From: Gallionellaceae bacterium
GTDB taxonomy: Bacteria > Pseudomonadota > Gammaproteobacteria > Burkholderiales > Thiobacillaceae
Assembly: GCA_028714875.1 (NCBI GenBank)
Contig: JAQTLN010000013.1
Span: 52,380 to 116,379, forward strand
Length of the DNA stretch: 64,000 nucleotides
Reading direction: 5' to 3'
Shown in pieces: positions 18,291 to 48,154 of the stretch (its first letter is position 1; every line of letters begins with the position of its first letter). A program made the position numbers and the translations under genes. A model generated the notes under the pieces. That model was given only the letters and a program-made list of their open reading frames with translations. It was not told the DNA's origin and searched no databases.

Positions 18291-18300
18291 TCACAAAGCC

Positions 18301-19032
18301 TCAGAAGGTTTTTTGCTCCGGAATCCCGGATGTCTTCAGATAGAGGTTGCGGCGTTTGCCGCCGGAGATCGGGATGCGCGTGGCTTTGAGGGCGGGGTAG
18401 TTCTCGGGGTTGGCCAGCGCCTGTGACCATTTCAGCGCGGTTTCCGGGTCCAGCGCCTTCTTGATGAGGTCCTGGGTCTTCGGGTGGAAGGGCGCCGACA
18501 GCCATTTGCCCAGGGTGTCCGGGCTGAGGGCCGTCGCCAGCAGATTCCAGCTACGCGCGTCGGTGGGCAACATCACCCAGCGCATCAAGCGGCCGGGGTC
18601 GAACAGAATGGCGTCGACGGCGGTGTAGAAGTCCGGCTCCGCCGCCGCCCTGGCCCACTTGTCGTAAATCTCCGGGTCGGTCCATTCCAGGAAGTTCTTC
18701 GGCGTGCCGGGGTCGAGCAGGGTGGACAGGCTGCGCACATAGGATTGCGGGTCGAGGCCGCGACGGCCGAATTCCAGCCAGATGCCGGGGTCGCTGAACA
18801 CTTCCAGCCACTGTAGGAAATTGCGTGGCGCCTTGAATGCCCAGCCGCTGGTCGTCAAATCCGTGCACCGGTCGGCCCAGCGGGTGACGCTGGGCGAAGG
18901 GGACAGGGGCGCGGGGGAAACCCCGGTGGGTCCGGTGTCGGCGGCCAGAGCCAGGTTCGCGCAAAGCAGGCCGGCGGCCAGAAGCGTTGTTTTCACAAGG
19001 GATGCGGAAGTGACAAACGGGAGGGGTGACAT
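18301..19032 (-). CDS. Exported protein of unknown function with internal W/DP-containing repeats
   Basis: Signal peptide (TLLAAGLLCANLALA); recurring W...DPxxW blocks across 243 aa. Confidence 0.6.
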   Translation of the reverse strand: MSPLPFVTSASLVKTTLLAAGLLCANLALAADTGPTGVSPAPLSPSPSVTRWADRCTDLTTSGWAFKAPRNFLQWLEVFSDPGIWLEFGRRGLDPQSYVRSLSTLLDPGTPKNFLEWTDPEIYDKWARAAAEPDFYTAVDAILFDPGRLMRWVMLPTDARSWNLLATALSPDTLGKWLSAPFHPKTQDLIKKALDPETALKWSQALANPENYPALKATRIPISGGKRRNLYLKTSGIPEQKTF

Positions 19033-29454: not shown

Positions 29455-30221
29455 AGGCGTTGAGTGTGAGTAACGTAGGGTGTGGTCTGCGTGGCCTGAT
29501 CGCCCTGACGCTGGTTTTGTTTCCGCTCGCCGCCCTGGCCGCGCCCGGCATTCCCGCTTTCTCCAGCACGCCGGGGGCGGGCGGCGCCACCAACTACACT
29601 TTCAGCATCGAAGCCCTGCTGCTGCTGACGGCGCTGACGTTCCTGCCGGCCGCGCTGTTGATGATGACCTCGTTCACCCGCATCGTCATCGTGCTGTCGC
29701 TGCTGCGCCAGGCGATGGGCACCATGCAGGCGCCGCCCAATCAGGTGATCGTCGGCCTGTCGCTGTTCCTCACTTTTTTCATCATGGCGCCGGTGTTCGA
29801 CAAGATTTACGAGACCGCCTGGAAGCCATATTCCGATAACCAGATTTCCCTGGTGGTCGCGGCGGATCGCGGCGTCCAGCCGCTCAAGTCCTTCATGCTC
29901 AAGCAAACCCGGCAGGAAGACCTGGCCCTGTTCATTCGCCTGGCCAAGGTGCCGCCCCTGGCCGGCCCGGAGGACACCCCGCTCAAGGTGCTGGTGCCCG
30001 CCTTCGTCATCAGCGAACTGAAAACGGCGTTCCAGATCGGTTTCATCGTTTTCATCCCGTTCCTGATCATCGATATGGTGGTGGCCAGCGTGTTGATGTC
30101 GATGGGCATGATGATGCTCTCGCCCATGCTGGTGTCGTTGCCGTTCAAGATCATGTTGTTCGTGCTGGCGGATGGTTGGGGGCTGTTGATTTCCTCGCTG
30201 GTGCAGACTTTCCAGATATGA
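29451..30221 (+). CDS. fliP: Flagellar biosynthetic protein FliP
   Basis: TALTFLPAALLMMTSFTRIVIVLSLLRQAMGTMQAPPNQV. Confidence 0.97.
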   Translation: MKALSVSNVGCGLRGLIALTLVLFPLAALAAPGIPAFSSTPGAGGATNYTFSIEALLLLTALTFLPAALLMMTSFTRIVIVLSLLRQAMGTMQAPPNQVIVGLSLFLTFFIMAPVFDKIYETAWKPYSDNQISLVVAADRGVQPLKSFMLKQTRQEDLALFIRLAKVPPLAGPEDTPLKVLVPAFVISELKTAFQIGFIVFIPFLIIDMVVASVLMSMGMMMLSPMLVSLPFKIMLFVLADGWGLLISSLVQTFQI

Positions 30222-30466
30222 GCGCCGCCGCCCGGCCGCCCGAAGGCGGCGCTCCCCCTCCCTCGGGGAGGAAGTCGCGCCAGCGACAGGAGGGTAGTCA
30301 TATGAGCGCCGCCGCCCGGCCGCCCGAAGGCGGCGCTCCCTCTCCCTCGGGGAGGAAGTCGCGCCAGCGACAGGAGGGTAGTCATATGAGCGCCGCCGCC
30401 CGGCCGCCCGAAGGCGGCGCCCACCTCCCTCGGAGAGGATGCCGCGCCAGTGACAGGAGGCTAATC
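30218..30466 (+). repeat. Three tandem 84-bp repeats between fliP and fliQ
   Basis: Units start at ATG 30218, 30302 and 30386; units 1-2 near-identical, unit 3 diverged; each ends with a Shine-Dalgarno-like caggagg. Confidence 0.95.
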
Positions 30467-40130: not shown

Positions 40131-41024
40131 CTACCCGCGCAGATTGCGCAGATGGTCGTGATAGCGGGCGCGATAGAGCAGGCGACGGTGTTCCGGGTGA
40201 TCGCTGAAACCGGAGCGGGTGTGCAGAACGTTGTTGCAGATCACGCCCATGCCGGGTTGCAGGCCGAGGCTGAAAGCACCCGCTGGTTTGCTGGCTAGGA
40301 GTGCGTCGAGCGCCCGCACGGCGGCCAGCGTGGCGGCATCTTGTTTCCAGGCGATACTCTTGGTGCGGGCGGTATAGCGCAGATGCAATAACCCGCTATC
40401 GACCAGGAAAGACGGGCCGGCTTCGTCGGGGCGCGCCACGCCTAGTTCGTCGGTACGCGCCGGAATGGTCATCGCGTCGTCGGCCATGAGGGCGCGGATG
40501 TGCGCCGGGTCGGCATCGCGCAGGGCGATATAGGCAAGTTCGTGGTCGTACAGGTCGTTGATGCCCCCTTCGTCGGCGGCACGCACGCAGTGCAGCGCCA
40601 TCGCCCAGATGCGCCGCACGGGTGGGTTGTAGTAGCCGTCGGTATGCCAGCGGATCGGCTTGTGGGTGTAGGGGATGAATTCGCCGCGCTTCTGGCCGTC
40701 TTCGTCGTGCGGAGTGAGGCTGGAAATGCCGTCTTCGTCCGCCAGCCAGTTGGCGTCCAGATGGGTCAGGCCGAATTGCGCGGCGAGCAAGGCCAAGGCT
40801 TCCTTGTCCTCGGATTCGCCCAGATCGGTGGCATAGATCGCCATGTTGGCCTTGGCGATCAGCCGCCAGATGGCCTGGTATTCGTCATCGCTCAGGTTGG
40901 CGGGGTCGCGCACCTTGACGATGAGGTCTTCGCCACGCGTCGGATAATCCGCCAGCTTGGCGGCGCGCCAGGCCTGGTAGCCGGCCTCGTTGTCGGGGTG
41001 AAAGGGGGAGTCGGCGGGGATCAT
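40131..41024 (-). CDS. TauD/TfdA-family dioxygenase
   Basis: IRWHTDGYYN (HxD) and GVICNNVLHTRSGF...HRRLLYRARYHD distal His/Arg motifs. Confidence 0.85.
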   Translation of the reverse strand: MIPADSPFHPDNEAGYQAWRAAKLADYPTRGEDLIVKVRDPANLSDDEYQAIWRLIAKANMAIYATDLGESEDKEALALLAAQFGLTHLDANWLADEDGISSLTPHDEDGQKRGEFIPYTHKPIRWHTDGYYNPPVRRIWAMALHCVRAADEGGINDLYDHELAYIALRDADPAHIRALMADDAMTIPARTDELGVARPDEAGPSFLVDSGLLHLRYTARTKSIAWKQDAATLAAVRALDALLASKPAGAFSLGLQPGMGVICNNVLHTRSGFSDHPEHRRLLYRARYHDHLRNLRG

Positions 41025-41093: not shown

Positions 41094-41687
41094 TTACTTG
41101 CCGTCGTCTTCGCTGGGCGGCGGGTAGAAGCCGTCCATGTTTTTCTTCACCATGCCCAGCATCTCGGGCATTTCGATATCCATGATCTGGTCCTGGATCC
41201 AGGTCTGGTCGGTTTGCTCCATGACCTCGCGGATTTGCAGCGAGAGGAAGCGCAACGCGGGGAAGCCGGGTTTGTCATCCGGGAAGTCGAAAGACGAGTA
41301 GTCGCCCATGCGCCGGTTGGTCAGCTCGATAAAACCAGCCTGATAGTCGTAGTCCGGGTCTTTCTCGCCGCCGGTGGCTTCGATGATGTTTTCTTCCATG
41401 ATCTCTGCCAGGCGCACGCCCACCGCGCTGACCACGTCCTGGCGCAGTTCGTCATCCATGCGGTTGAAGGCCAGGCGGTCGACGTAATGGACGAGAAAAC
41501 AGGCCATTTCGCCGATGATGCGGAAGCCGCGTTGCGGCGTGATGATGTCGAAATCGGCTTTGGACAGGTTGTCGATGGTGCGGTCGCACAGGCGCCAGAT
41601 GGTGGAGGCGAGGACGGTGGCGACCTCGGTTGGATCGCGCTGTTCGCCATCCTTCTTGAACCAGACGGTTTTGACTCTGAGTGCCAA
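41094..41687 (-). CDS. Conserved protein of unknown function in the dsr-linked operon (probable TTG start)
   Basis: ORF runs to 41732 but ggagaataaccTTG at 41687, just past the upstream gene stop, is a plausible start; acidic helical protein. Confidence 0.7.
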   Translation of the reverse strand: MALRVKTVWFKKDGEQRDPTEVATVLASTIWRLCDRTIDNLSKADFDIITPQRGFRIIGEMACFLVHYVDRLAFNRMDDELRQDVVSAVGVRLAEIMEENIIEATGGEKDPDYDYQAGFIELTNRRMGDYSSFDFPDDKPGFPALRFLSLQIREVMEQTDQTWIQDQIMDIEMPEMLGMVKKNMDGFYPPPSEDDGK

Positions 41688-41689
41688 GG

Positions 41690-42538
41690 TTATTCTCCGG
41701 TGGCGATGGGTCTGGCGGGATCGCGTATCCATTCGCTCCAGGAGCCGGGGTAGAGGCGCGACCCGGCCAGGCCGGCGACTTCCATCGCCAGCAGGTTGTG
41801 GCAGGCGGTGACGCCGGAGCCGCAGGAATGGATGACCTGCCAGGGCGCGCGGCCTTTCAGCAAGGACTGATAGTTTTCGCGCAACGCCTCGGGCGGCAGG
41901 AAAGTGCCGTCGATGTCGAGGTTCTCGTCGAACGGCCAGTTGATGGAGCCGGGTATGTGCCCGGCGACCGGGTCGAGCGGCTCGAATTCGCCGCTGAAGC
42001 GACGGTCTGGTCGCGCGTCGATGATCAGCGCGTCGCCAGTTCGCGAGGCGCGCAGCACCTCGTCGGCGTCGACGATCTGGCTGTGTTCCGGCAGGCAGGC
42101 GCAGTTGCCTTTACGAGTAACGGGCAATGCGGCCGTTAGTGGGCGCTTTTCCTTGCGCCACTTGGGTATGCCGCCGTCGAGCAGGGCGGCGCCGGGGTGG
42201 CCGAGCCAGCGCAGCATCCACCACAGGCGTACTGCCATGGCGCCATAACTGTCGTCGTACACGACGACCTGCTTGTTGACACCGACGCCCCAGGCGCAAA
42301 GCTTTTTCGCCAATTCCTGGACATCAGGTAGTGGGTGGCGGCCCCTGCTGTCGGTGATCGGCGCGGACATGTCTTCTTCGAGATGAACGTAGCGCGCGCC
42401 GGGAATGTGTTCTTTGAGATAGGCCTGACGACCGGCTTCCGGATCGGTCAGCGTGAAGCGGCAGTCGAAGACGATCCAGTCGGGATCATCCAGGTGAGCG
42501 GCCAGGTCTTCGGTTGTAACCAGGGTGTTGATGAACAT
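41690..42538 (-). CDS. Thiosulfate/3-mercaptopyruvate sulfurtransferase-like protein (double rhodanese)
   Basis: WIVFDCRFTLTDPEAGRQAYLKEHIPGARYVHLEEDMS; active-site-like VIHSCGSGVTACHNLLAM. Confidence 0.94.
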   Translation of the reverse strand: MFINTLVTTEDLAAHLDDPDWIVFDCRFTLTDPEAGRQAYLKEHIPGARYVHLEEDMSAPITDSRGRHPLPDVQELAKKLCAWGVGVNKQVVVYDDSYGAMAVRLWWMLRWLGHPGAALLDGGIPKWRKEKRPLTAALPVTRKGNCACLPEHSQIVDADEVLRASRTGDALIIDARPDRRFSGEFEPLDPVAGHIPGSINWPFDENLDIDGTFLPPEALRENYQSLLKGRAPWQVIHSCGSGVTACHNLLAMEVAGLAGSRLYPGSWSEWIRDPARPIATGE

Positions 42539-42632: not shown

Positions 42633-42965
42633 TTAGTAACCGCCCTTGCCGAAGGGCTTGGTCAGTCCGGCCACTTTGGCGGACTGGCGGTTGGGTTGCA
42701 GGGGGAACAGTTCATACAGTACTTTTTTCCAGTCGACACTGTCGTCCTCGTCGTTGAGGTCGGCGACCATGTTGCGGAAATTGGGGGTCTGACCGTCTTC
42801 CTGGTATTTGCGACGCATGAAATTGATGACCTGCCAGTGCGCGTCGGTCAGGGTGATATTTTCAGCTTCGGCGATCACCGGAACGATTTCTTCGCTGAAG
42901 TTGGCTTCCAGCAGGAAACCATCGTCATCCACTTCGAGTTCTTCGCCGTTCAGTACATAGCCCAC
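42633..42965 (-). CDS. DsrC-family paralogue without cysteines (RspA-type)
   Basis: LEVDDDGFLLEANFSEEIVPVIAEAENITLTDAHWQVINFMRRKYQEDGQTPNFRNMV...; C-terminus VAGLTKPFGKGGY instead of IAGLPKPTGCI. Confidence 0.9.
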   Translation of the reverse strand: MGYVLNGEELEVDDDGFLLEANFSEEIVPVIAEAENITLTDAHWQVINFMRRKYQEDGQTPNFRNMVADLNDEDDSVDWKKVLYELFPLQPNRQSAKVAGLTKPFGKGGY

Positions 42966-43010: not shown

Positions 43011-43664
43011 TCAGACGGTCGAAACTTCTTTGATCGATTTGTGCGGTATGAAGATGCCGCAGCCCCAGGCGCGATGCAGTCCCAGGCCCGATTCCTGCAC
43101 GGCCAGTGAATGCACCATGCTGAGGTCATGCAGCATCAATGTGTGGCCGCTGATCTCACCTTCGGGTGTCAGCATTTTACGTTGCAAGCCCGGTATCAGT
43201 CCGCATTGGATTCCCAGTTCATCAAGTTTTCGTCGCACCTCAACCAGAATCATGGCTTCATCGGCATCACCGAGGGTCACGAAGTGGGAATACAGCGTGC
43301 CAAATGGCGTCAGGTTTTTCTCTTTCAAGGGGCCGATAACAAGATTCCCCGCGCCTGGGTTGATGCTCTGGCCGACCAGCGCATGCGCCGCCTCCAGGCG
43401 TTCTACCGGAAGGCGCAATACCAGTTTTACCCTCCTATTGATCACCAGATTGGCATTGCGCCCACTCGGGGCGCCATGGACCGGATGTATGCCAGCCACA
43501 GGCGTATCGGCTAGCCAGGGAAGATGGCGCAACACTTCAGCGTAGAGCGCGGGGCCGTGGTCAGCCGGGATTTCCCCCCCTGATAAGTCGTAGTAAAGGT
43601 CCAGCACTTTGGGTGTGAACTTCATGTCTTTCACGGCGTCCCATTCCGGGTTGTACATGCGCAT
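43011..43664 (-). CDS. Cas6/Cmx6-like RAMP-superfamily protein (putative RNA-binding or endoribonuclease)
   Basis: IPADHGPALYAEVLRHLPWLAD, IHPVHGAPSGRNANLVINRRVKLVLRLP, C-terminal Gly-rich loop ESGLGLHRAWGCGIFIPHKSI. Confidence 0.78.
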   Translation of the reverse strand: MRMYNPEWDAVKDMKFTPKVLDLYYDLSGGEIPADHGPALYAEVLRHLPWLADTPVAGIHPVHGAPSGRNANLVINRRVKLVLRLPVERLEAAHALVGQSINPGAGNLVIGPLKEKNLTPFGTLYSHFVTLGDADEAMILVEVRRKLDELGIQCGLIPGLQRKMLTPEGEISGHTLMLHDLSMVHSLAVQESGLGLHRAWGCGIFIPHKSIKEVSTV

Positions 43665-43667
43665 GGA

Positions 43668-43910
43668 TCAGTCCTCGGCGGTCGGGGGAGTGGAGTCGGC
43701 GGCCAGTGGCGTGGCCCACTTCAACATTTCTTCCGCCCAGTATTTAGCGGTTGTGGGGTCGACGTCGAAAATGGTGAAACGGGCGCCGCGTTCCCGAATC
43801 CGCAGGCGTAGCATCGGCGTGCCGCCTGCTTCATAGCACGCCTCCTGCAACTCGATTTCCTGGTTGCCGAAGGGGTTGCGAAACTTGGTGAGGGATGTGA
43901 TTTGGTCCAT
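43668..43910 (-). CDS. Small protein of unknown function (80 aa), first gene of the Cas6-like/DsrC-like operon
   Basis: MDQITSLTKFRNPFGNQEIELQEACYEAGGTPMLRLRIRERGARFTIFDVDPTTAKYWAEEMLKWA; stop 3 nt before the Cas6-like ATG. Confidence 0.75.
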   Translation of the reverse strand: MDQITSLTKFRNPFGNQEIELQEACYEAGGTPMLRLRIRERGARFTIFDVDPTTAKYWAEEMLKWATPLAADSTPPTAED

Positions 43911-43989: not shown

Positions 43990-44029
43990 GTAGTACTCAA
44001 CCTACCCGATCGGGTAGGTTGAGTACTAC
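43990..44029. promoter_or_regulatory. Perfect 40-bp palindrome in the dsrA divergent intergenic region
   Basis: gtagtactcaacctacccga|tcgggtaggttgagtactac, 20 of 20 pairs, no spacer. Confidence 0.85.
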
Positions 44030-44188: not shown

Positions 44189-45490
44189 ATGGCTAAGCAA
44201 ATGATTGATACGCCGAACCTGGACGAGCTCGAGACCGGCCCTTGGCCCTCGTTCGTTACGGGTCTGAAGCGCCTGGCTAAAGACAACGACATGATGGTCG
44301 ACCTGATGGGCCAGTTGGAGACTTCCTACCAGACCCGCTTCGGCTATTGGAAAGGCGGTACCGTTGGTGTGGTGGGCTACGGTGGTGGCGTGATTCCGCG
44401 CTTTACCGAGCTGAAAGACGAGAACCATAAGCCCCTGTTCCCCGAGGCGGCCGAGTTCCATACCCTGCGCATCATGCCGCCCGCCGGCATGCATTACACC
44501 TCCGACCTGCTGCGTCAGATGTCCGACGCCTGGCTGGAAACCGGTGGCTCCGGCCTGATCGCTTTCCACGGCCAGTCTGGCGACATCATGCTGCAAGGCA
44601 TCAAGACCAACGACGTGCAGCGTGCTTTCGACAAGTTCAATGAAATGGGCTTTGACCTGGGTGGCGCCGGCCCCGCTTTGCGCACCTCCATGTCTTGCGT
44701 CGGCGCCGCGCGTTGTGAAATGTCTTGTTATGACGAAGCTCGCGCGCTGCGCATCGTCATCAACAACAACCTGGACGATATGCATCGCCCGTCCCTGCCG
44801 TACAAGTTCAAGTTCAAGTTCTCCGGCTGCCCAAACGACTGTATGAACTCCATTCAGCGTTCCGACATGGCTACCATCGGCACCTGGCGCGACAACATTC
44901 GCGCCGACGAGAAGCTGGCGCGTGATTGGTATGCGGCGCACAGCATGGAGGACACCATCAATATGGTCGTCAACCATTGCCCGACAAAGGCCATCCAGCT
45001 CAAAAAGAACGATGGCGCGGCCGCCGCTGAAGGCGTTACCAAGGTGGTGCTGTCGGATGAGAATTGCCTGGAAATCGACAACCACAACTGCGTGCGTTGC
45101 ATGCACTGCCTGAATGTCATGCCTGGCGCGCTCCTGCCCGGTAAAGACAAGGGTGTCACCATCCTGGTCGGCGGCAAGAGTGTGCTGAAGATTGGCGCCA
45201 CGATGGGTACCGTGGTGATTCCGTTCATGAAGCTTGAGTCGGACGAAGATTTTGAACGTCTGAACGATCTGTCCCGTTCCATGCTCGACTTCTTCGCTGA
45301 AAATGCGCTGGAGCATGAGCGTACCGGCGAGATGATCGAACGTATCGGCCTGGTTAACTTCCTGGAAGGCATTGAGCTGGAGATTGATCCCAACATGATC
45401 AGTTCGCCGCGCTCCAATCCTTATGCTCGCATGGATGGTTGGGACGAGGAAGCGGCCAAGTGGTTCGAGCGCAAGCAGGCCGCCGCCTGA
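44189..45490 (+). CDS. dsrA: Dissimilatory (reverse-type) sulfite reductase alpha subunit
   Basis: MIDTPNLDELETGPWPSFVTGLKRLAKDN; siroheme/Fe-S and ferredoxin motifs; followed by dsrBEFHC. Confidence 0.98.
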   Translation: MAKQMIDTPNLDELETGPWPSFVTGLKRLAKDNDMMVDLMGQLETSYQTRFGYWKGGTVGVVGYGGGVIPRFTELKDENHKPLFPEAAEFHTLRIMPPAGMHYTSDLLRQMSDAWLETGGSGLIAFHGQSGDIMLQGIKTNDVQRAFDKFNEMGFDLGGAGPALRTSMSCVGAARCEMSCYDEARALRIVINNNLDDMHRPSLPYKFKFKFSGCPNDCMNSIQRSDMATIGTWRDNIRADEKLARDWYAAHSMEDTINMVVNHCPTKAIQLKKNDGAAAAEGVTKVVLSDENCLEIDNHNCVRCMHCLNVMPGALLPGKDKGVTILVGGKSVLKIGATMGTVVIPFMKLESDEDFERLNDLSRSMLDFFAENALEHERTGEMIERIGLVNFLEGIELEIDPNMISSPRSNPYARMDGWDEEAAKWFERKQAAA

Positions 45491-47818: not shown

Positions 47819-48154
47819 ATGCCTATGGTTGAAGTTGCCGGTAAATCTTTTGAAGTCGACGAGGAAGGCTACCTGACCAATCTGGCCGATTGGAACCAGG
47901 ACATCGCTGGATATCTGGCTCAGGAAGAAAAAGTTGAAATGACCGATTCCCATTGGGAAGTCGTCAACTTCCTGCGCGAGTACTACGACGAGTACCAAAT
48001 CGCCCCCGCTGTGCGCGTGCTGACCAAGGCGATCTCCAAGAAGCTGGGCGCGGACAAGGGCAACAACAAGTATCTGTACGAGTTGTTCCCCTATGGCCCC
48101 GCCAAGCAGGCTTGCAAGATCGCCGGTCTGCCCAAGCCGACCGGCTGTATCTGA
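47819..48154 (+). CDS. dsrC: DsrC, canonical sulfur carrier with C-terminal two-Cys arm
   Basis: C-terminus YELFPYGPAKQACKIAGLPKPTGCI. Confidence 0.98.
   Translation: MPMVEVAGKSFEVDEEGYLTNLADWNQDIAGYLAQEEKVEMTDSHWEVVNFLREYYDEYQIAPAVRVLTKAISKKLGADKGNNKYLYELFPYGPAKQACKIAGLPKPTGCI

Follow-up and report, generated by a model that had tools for sequence, protein, structure and literature searches.

Two described CRISPR settings lie closest to the protein analyzed here. The type I-MYXAN (I-B) Cas6/Cmx6 proteins of cyanobacterial plasmids, such as pSYLB of Synechocystis 6714, are encoded beside cas3, cas7 and cas5 and usually cas1-cas2, and the Cas6 of the type I-B CAST Cascade (8fcj/8fcu) acts within Cascade with crRNA. 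The DevTRS genes of Myxococcus are a precedent for CRISPR genes that are bound to a host programme. DsrC, the other protein family of concern here, carries sulfur on its C-terminal cysteines (...GLPKPTGC[IV]). We have analyzed a 64-kb stretch of DNA (the window) in which a Cas6-like gene is found in an operon divergent from dsrA. The features of this locus are:

40131..41024, minus strand: TauD-like dioxygenase, at the end of the operon (PF02668, 3e-18); recurs in related loci
41094..41732, minus strand: g212, a conserved protein with an uncertain start codon; recurs in related loci
41690..42538, minus strand: two-domain rhodanese / mercaptopyruvate-sulfurtransferase-like protein, MST (PF00581; PRK11493-like match below cut-off)
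42633..42965, minus strand: cysteine-less DsrC/TusE paralogue ending GKGGY (PF04358, 5e-30; C-terminal comparison)
43011..43664, minus strand: Cas6/Cmx6-family RAMP protein, 217 aa (PF09559, TIGR02807, PDB 8fcj_B, AlphaFold2 and Foldseek)
43668..43910, minus strand: DUF6967 protein, 80 aa, 3 nt upstream of the Cas6-like gene (PF22295, 1e-27)
43990..44029, no strand: 40-bp perfect palindrome, core CTACCCGATCGGGTAG, between the divergent operons
44189..45490, plus strand: dsrA, divergent from the Cas6 operon (TIGR02064, 490.8 bits over cut-off, matching genome position)
47819..48154, plus strand: canonical DsrC with both C-terminal cysteines (GLPKPTGCI), working counterpart of the GKGGY-ending paralogue

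A preliminary description of this DNA had placed the 217-aa ORF in the Cas6/Cmx6 family on the basis of motifs near its two ends, without giving its strand. The ORF is present on the minus strand (43664→43011), both motifs occur in it, and the plus-strand reading of the same interval contains four stops. Its family membership is now solid. The full Cas6/Cmx6 domain is covered above the curated cut-offs, with 168 bits (E 2e-49) for the Pfam accession PF09559 Cas6 (cut-off 26.7) and 141.7 bits for the NCBIfam model TIGR02807 cas6_cmx6 (cut-off 98.85), and six PADLOC Cas6 models match as well. The single solved relative found by phmmer is 8fcj_B, the Cas6 of type I-B CAST Cascade (E 1.4e-16). An AlphaFold2 model built from 26 homologues (pLDDT 88.7, pTM 0.83) was searched with Foldseek, as the preliminary description had suggested; the best match was 8fcu_B, also a type I-B CAST Cas6, at TM 0.83, followed by Pyrococcus Cas6 at TM ~0.6 and then Cse3. 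By predicted model and structural match, the protein has the ferredoxin-like RAMP fold of Cas6.

In a phylogenetic tree, Cas6 proteins associated with dsr form a clade apart from the Cmx6 proteins of CRISPR systems, with support of 100/99. E136 is found in 107/107 members of the dsr clade and 0/8 CRISPR Cmx6 proteins, R78 in 106/107 and 1/8, and K209 in 106/107 and none of the eight. Median dN/dS values of 0.25 and 0.17 in two groups of dsr-associated Cas6 indicate that the gene is under purifying selection. The window protein contains the Gly-rich loop GxGxxRxxGCGxFxP, and within the dsr clade G193, G195, R198, G201-C202-G203 and P207 are near-invariant and the basic positions R77, R78, K80, R84, R198 and K209 are retained. 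Judged by its retained RAMP fold, its loop and these basic positions, the protein probably binds RNA. His60 aligns with the GIHP histidine of CAST Cas6 and would lie near the position of the catalytic histidine of Pyrococcus Cas6. It is present in 69/107 members of the dsr clade and is also missing from I-MYXAN members; since it is replaced by F, L, Q, R or I in the remainder, about a third, cleavage is not assured.

The neighbours named in the preliminary description, namely a small gene 3 nt upstream, a DsrC paralogue and a sulfurtransferase, are all in place, the last being the rhodanese/MST gene, and dsrA flanks the operon divergently. The DsrC paralogue is unusual. It belongs to the same family as DsrC and TusE (PF04358) and ends in GKGGY in place of the cysteine motif, and neither of the redox cysteines of the C-terminal arm is present. 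Cas6-linked paralogues generally end in GLPKPFGKGGY, with KGGY in 66/67 and KAGY in one; the terminal cysteine is present in 0/67, and five have a cysteine at the upstream position. Because the terminal cysteine is missing, these proteins (KGGY-DsrC) cannot perform the known sulfur-transfer chemistry of DsrC. KGGY-ending DsrC paralogues form a class tied to the Dsr pathway, and a second example lies at 18294-18620 of a Candidatus Thioglobus locus (L057). The rhodanese and TusE-like genes of the operon recall the Tus proteins of tRNA thiolation, and an adaptor that hands RNA to a sulfur relay of MST and the DsrC-like protein might be imagined; we consider this very unlikely, as the terminal cysteine is gone from the DsrC-like partner and MST, frequent as it is, is missing from many Cas6 operons.

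The adjacent DUF6967 protein has a predicted beta4-alpha fold (AlphaFold2, pLDDT 87). Its best Foldseek matches are Pur-alpha and a PC4 homologue, with probability ~1 but weak E values of 0.03-0.14, and by this predicted model it looks like a PUR/PC4 nucleic-acid-binding domain. This resemblance, together with the Gly-rich loop and the six basic positions retained in Cas6, argues against a RAMP fold that has given up RNA and now serves as a scaffold for proteins only (KGGY-DsrC, DsrAB). Such a scaffold would fit the private invariant residues, the strict DsrC-like partner and the unconserved catalytic histidine, but on balance we regard it as unlikely. No family match above cut-off was obtained for g212 in profile searches.

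The preliminary description had proposed a survey of dsr neighbourhoods for conserved linkage, and this linkage was found in a sample of 300 genomes of the window's order. A clear dsrA is present in 64/300, and Cas6 occurs in 58/64 genomes with dsrA and 0/236 without; every Cas6 carrier (58/58) thus has dsrA (Fisher p 1e-55, no phylogenetic correction). Fisher tests ignore phylogeny here and below, and many of the sampled genomes are incomplete MAGs. The Cas6-positive genomes are spread over 14 families, and Cas6 tracks dsrA in several mixed families. All 58 loci were read and display one architecture, DUF6967-Cas6-DsrC-like(-MST)(-g212)(-TauD), nearly always divergent from dsrA; dsrA lies 4.7 kb away in one genome and tauD intervenes in two. 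The DsrC-like gene directly follows Cas6 in 58/58 loci, while DUF6967 was undetected in a few. Two genomes (G241 and G271; L065, L066) have a dsrA profile score of ~598 bits, against ~500 bits elsewhere, and a rearranged operon with tauD beside dsrA, several DsrC paralogues and Cas6 still present.

A distant Cas6 member in Candidatus Thioglobus (L057) provided the entry point to a second order. The Cas6-like gene is found in 49/83 genomes of this order, 47/49 of which have dsrA or a dsrA fragment; four genomes with dsrA have no Cas6. The gene is not linked to dsr here: in the loci fetched, rnc is its divergent neighbour and a gene for a SoxW-like thioredoxin follows it. The pairing with KGGY-DsrC is nevertheless maintained, the paralogue being present in 48/49 Cas6-positive and 1/34 Cas6-negative genomes and lying 6-10 kb from Cas6 in most fetched loci. 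Several Cas6-positive genomes are single contigs of 1.0-1.2 Mb without Cas1 and are probably of clam-symbiont type; in the smallest of them the soxW-like gene is decaying and the Cas6 reading frame is intact. Six genomes with dsr in the window's order and four in the Thioglobus order have no Cas6, and the Dsr pathway can therefore do without it. The pairing of Cas6 with KGGY-DsrC is strong but not absolute, since three genomes keep KGGY-DsrC alone (two dsr-positive genomes of the window's order, where the paralogue is elsewhere, and one of the Thioglobus order). Co-occurrence of this kind is unable to separate direct interaction from a shared pathway.

As had been claimed, the window contains no CRISPR-like array, and profile searches of the window matched no other cas genes near the Cas6-like gene. 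The only spaced repeat listed in the window is at 30216-30390, where three tandem copies of a GC-rich unit of ~84 bp lie between fliP- and fliQ-like ORFs. The preliminary description had called for a genome-wide CRISPR search; the array scan covered the window and the fetched contigs of the genome. Contig 1 of the same genome encodes a complete type I-E CRISPR-Cas system (cas3, cse1, cse2, cas7, cas5, cas6e and cas1, with subunit names assigned from ORF sequence and order) whose array has more than 80 repeats at a period of 61 bp (L063 13357-20000, L064 1-626). The Cas6e of this system is a different Cas6 from the window protein, and the cognate array and cas genes that accompany a functional CRISPR Cas6 are missing at the window locus. 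Failure to find a Cas6 fold, or an array elsewhere in the genome with matching repeats and without conserved dsr linkage across genomes, were the findings named beforehand as damaging to the exaptation reading; the fold was recovered, and the array is served by its own Cas6e. Cas1 is found in 18/58 Cas6-positive and 96/242 Cas6-negative genomes of the window's order (300 genomes, p 0.23), and with no Cas1 enrichment a tie between the Cas6-like gene and CRISPR content was rejected. Thus, although an array exists in this genome, an ordinary CRISPR Cas6 working on it in trans is largely refuted and hardly credible, given the type I-E Cas6e and the fact that Cas1 was unseen in 40/58 Cas6-positive genomes of the order and in most of the second order.

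Several candidates for an RNA target were considered. The palindrome at 43990-44029 has a fold z of -4.2 and a conserved core; outside this core, its arms differ between close relatives in a compensatory way. Around the palindrome are additional CTACCC half-sites and a TTACCCCATCGGAATGATGG...CTAATATG stretch that is also conserved, and a conserved TAATAT element is read as the -10 of dsrA. The palindrome was rejected as a Cas6 target: it lies upstream of TAATAT, and the motif TACyCC-N4-GGGTAG also occurs in Cas6-less dsr loci. On both counts it is more likely an operator, and the region is probably a dsr operator/promoter and not a Cas6-specific element. The dsrA-B and dsrB-E intercistronic hairpins, which are common near the window, were also rejected, since in many Cas6-positive lineages the dsr intercistronic gaps are <25 nt and therefore hold no hairpin. 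Rfam gave no match at 40-57 kb of the window, and folding of intergenic alignments, which were gapped, yielded nothing useful. No conserved RNA target emerged from the palindrome, the intercistronic hairpins, Rfam or intergenic folding. These results bear on the possibility that the protein is an active endoribonuclease, which would treat one particular hairpin the way Cas6 treats CRISPR repeats, cleaving it within a small RNA, dsr mRNA or the mRNA of its own operon, and would so set transcript stoichiometry. The preserved fold and Gly-rich loop, the majority of members with His60 and the hairpins of many near loci are in keeping with it, but with the substitutions at His60 and the hairpin-free lineages it appears doubtful, if worth retaining. 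The preliminary description had envisaged an exapted protein acting on dsr transcripts. Exaptation stands, with a Cas6 fold, a conserved dsr association and independence from CRISPR; dsr RNA is no more than a candidate substrate, as genomes of the Thioglobus order carry the gene away from dsr, the palindrome occurs in Cas6-less loci and the hairpins are often absent.

We favour, with some reserve, an exapted Cmx6-type Cas6 that has become a fixed Dsr accessory and an RNA-binding regulator, with KGGY-DsrC as its partner or state sensor. A Cmx6-type RAMP protein would have left CRISPR and become fixed as an accessory of Dsr sulfur oxidation. Its retained RAMP RNA face would bind structured cellular RNA, and it would act as a regulator and not as a guide-RNA nuclease; the unconserved His60 and the cysteine-less partner point to a regulatory role that perhaps involves no cutting. 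KGGY-DsrC would report DsrAB/DsrC status and thereby provide a coupling between sulfur-oxidation status and RNA handling. The translationally adjacent, PUR/PC4-like DUF6967 protein may assist in the betaproteobacteria. More tentatively, and with somewhat less than even confidence, the Cas6-like protein and KGGY-DsrC (with the PUR/PC4-like protein in betaproteobacteria) may form a non-CRISPR ribonucleoprotein or RNA-regulatory module through which RNA control is linked to Dsr sulfur-oxidation status and which is kept in genomes of ~1 Mb.

Family membership, and the automatic naming of such proteins as Cas6/Cmx6 by profiles, is already known. To the extent that the open literature was searched, the novelty lies in an entire Cas6 clade that has a fixed place in Dsr sulfur oxidation outside CRISPR, with a partner of its own; no published description of a dsr-linked Cas6 clade was found there, and a paper on Dsr evolution mentions neither Cas6 nor CRISPR (PMC11406059). 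Lone cas genes are commonly written off as remnants; here a Cas6 clade is bound to one energy pathway, not to immunity, in two orders and even in ~1 Mb genomes. That nearly all sampled sulfur oxidisers of these orders carry Cas6 without its CRISPR system and beside a DsrC-like partner bereft of its working cysteines suggests recruitment to another, probably RNA-binding, job in sulfur oxidation. If this is true, a CRISPR RNA protein has been exapted for metabolism, the Dsr pathway gains an unrecognised component and an unrecognised class of DsrC, and "CRISPR-associated" labels on the dsr clade mislead CRISPR censuses. Regulation of dsr becomes a testable question with named genes.

Compared with the known systems, the window protein shares its Pfam and NCBIfam family and the G-rich C-terminal loop with I-MYXAN Cas6/Cmx6, at 26-32% identity. 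The dsr clade differs from the latter as a monophyletic group of its own with the private residues R78, E136 and K209, and its genes lie beside dsr or alone. One Gloeobacter plasmid (L077 9974-18580) has a Cmx6-type Cas6 with neither cas3 nor cas1; the genes around it are two of the PAPS-reductase family and others that lack annotation, and the locus is possibly type IV-like or novel. The CAST Cas6 is the closest solved structure and has the GIHP histidine motif in common, but the window locus has no Cascade genes. DevTRS likewise differs from the lone Cas6, in that an entire cas operon is involved and the host programme is development; in the dsr clade a single RAMP protein is tied to sulfur metabolism.
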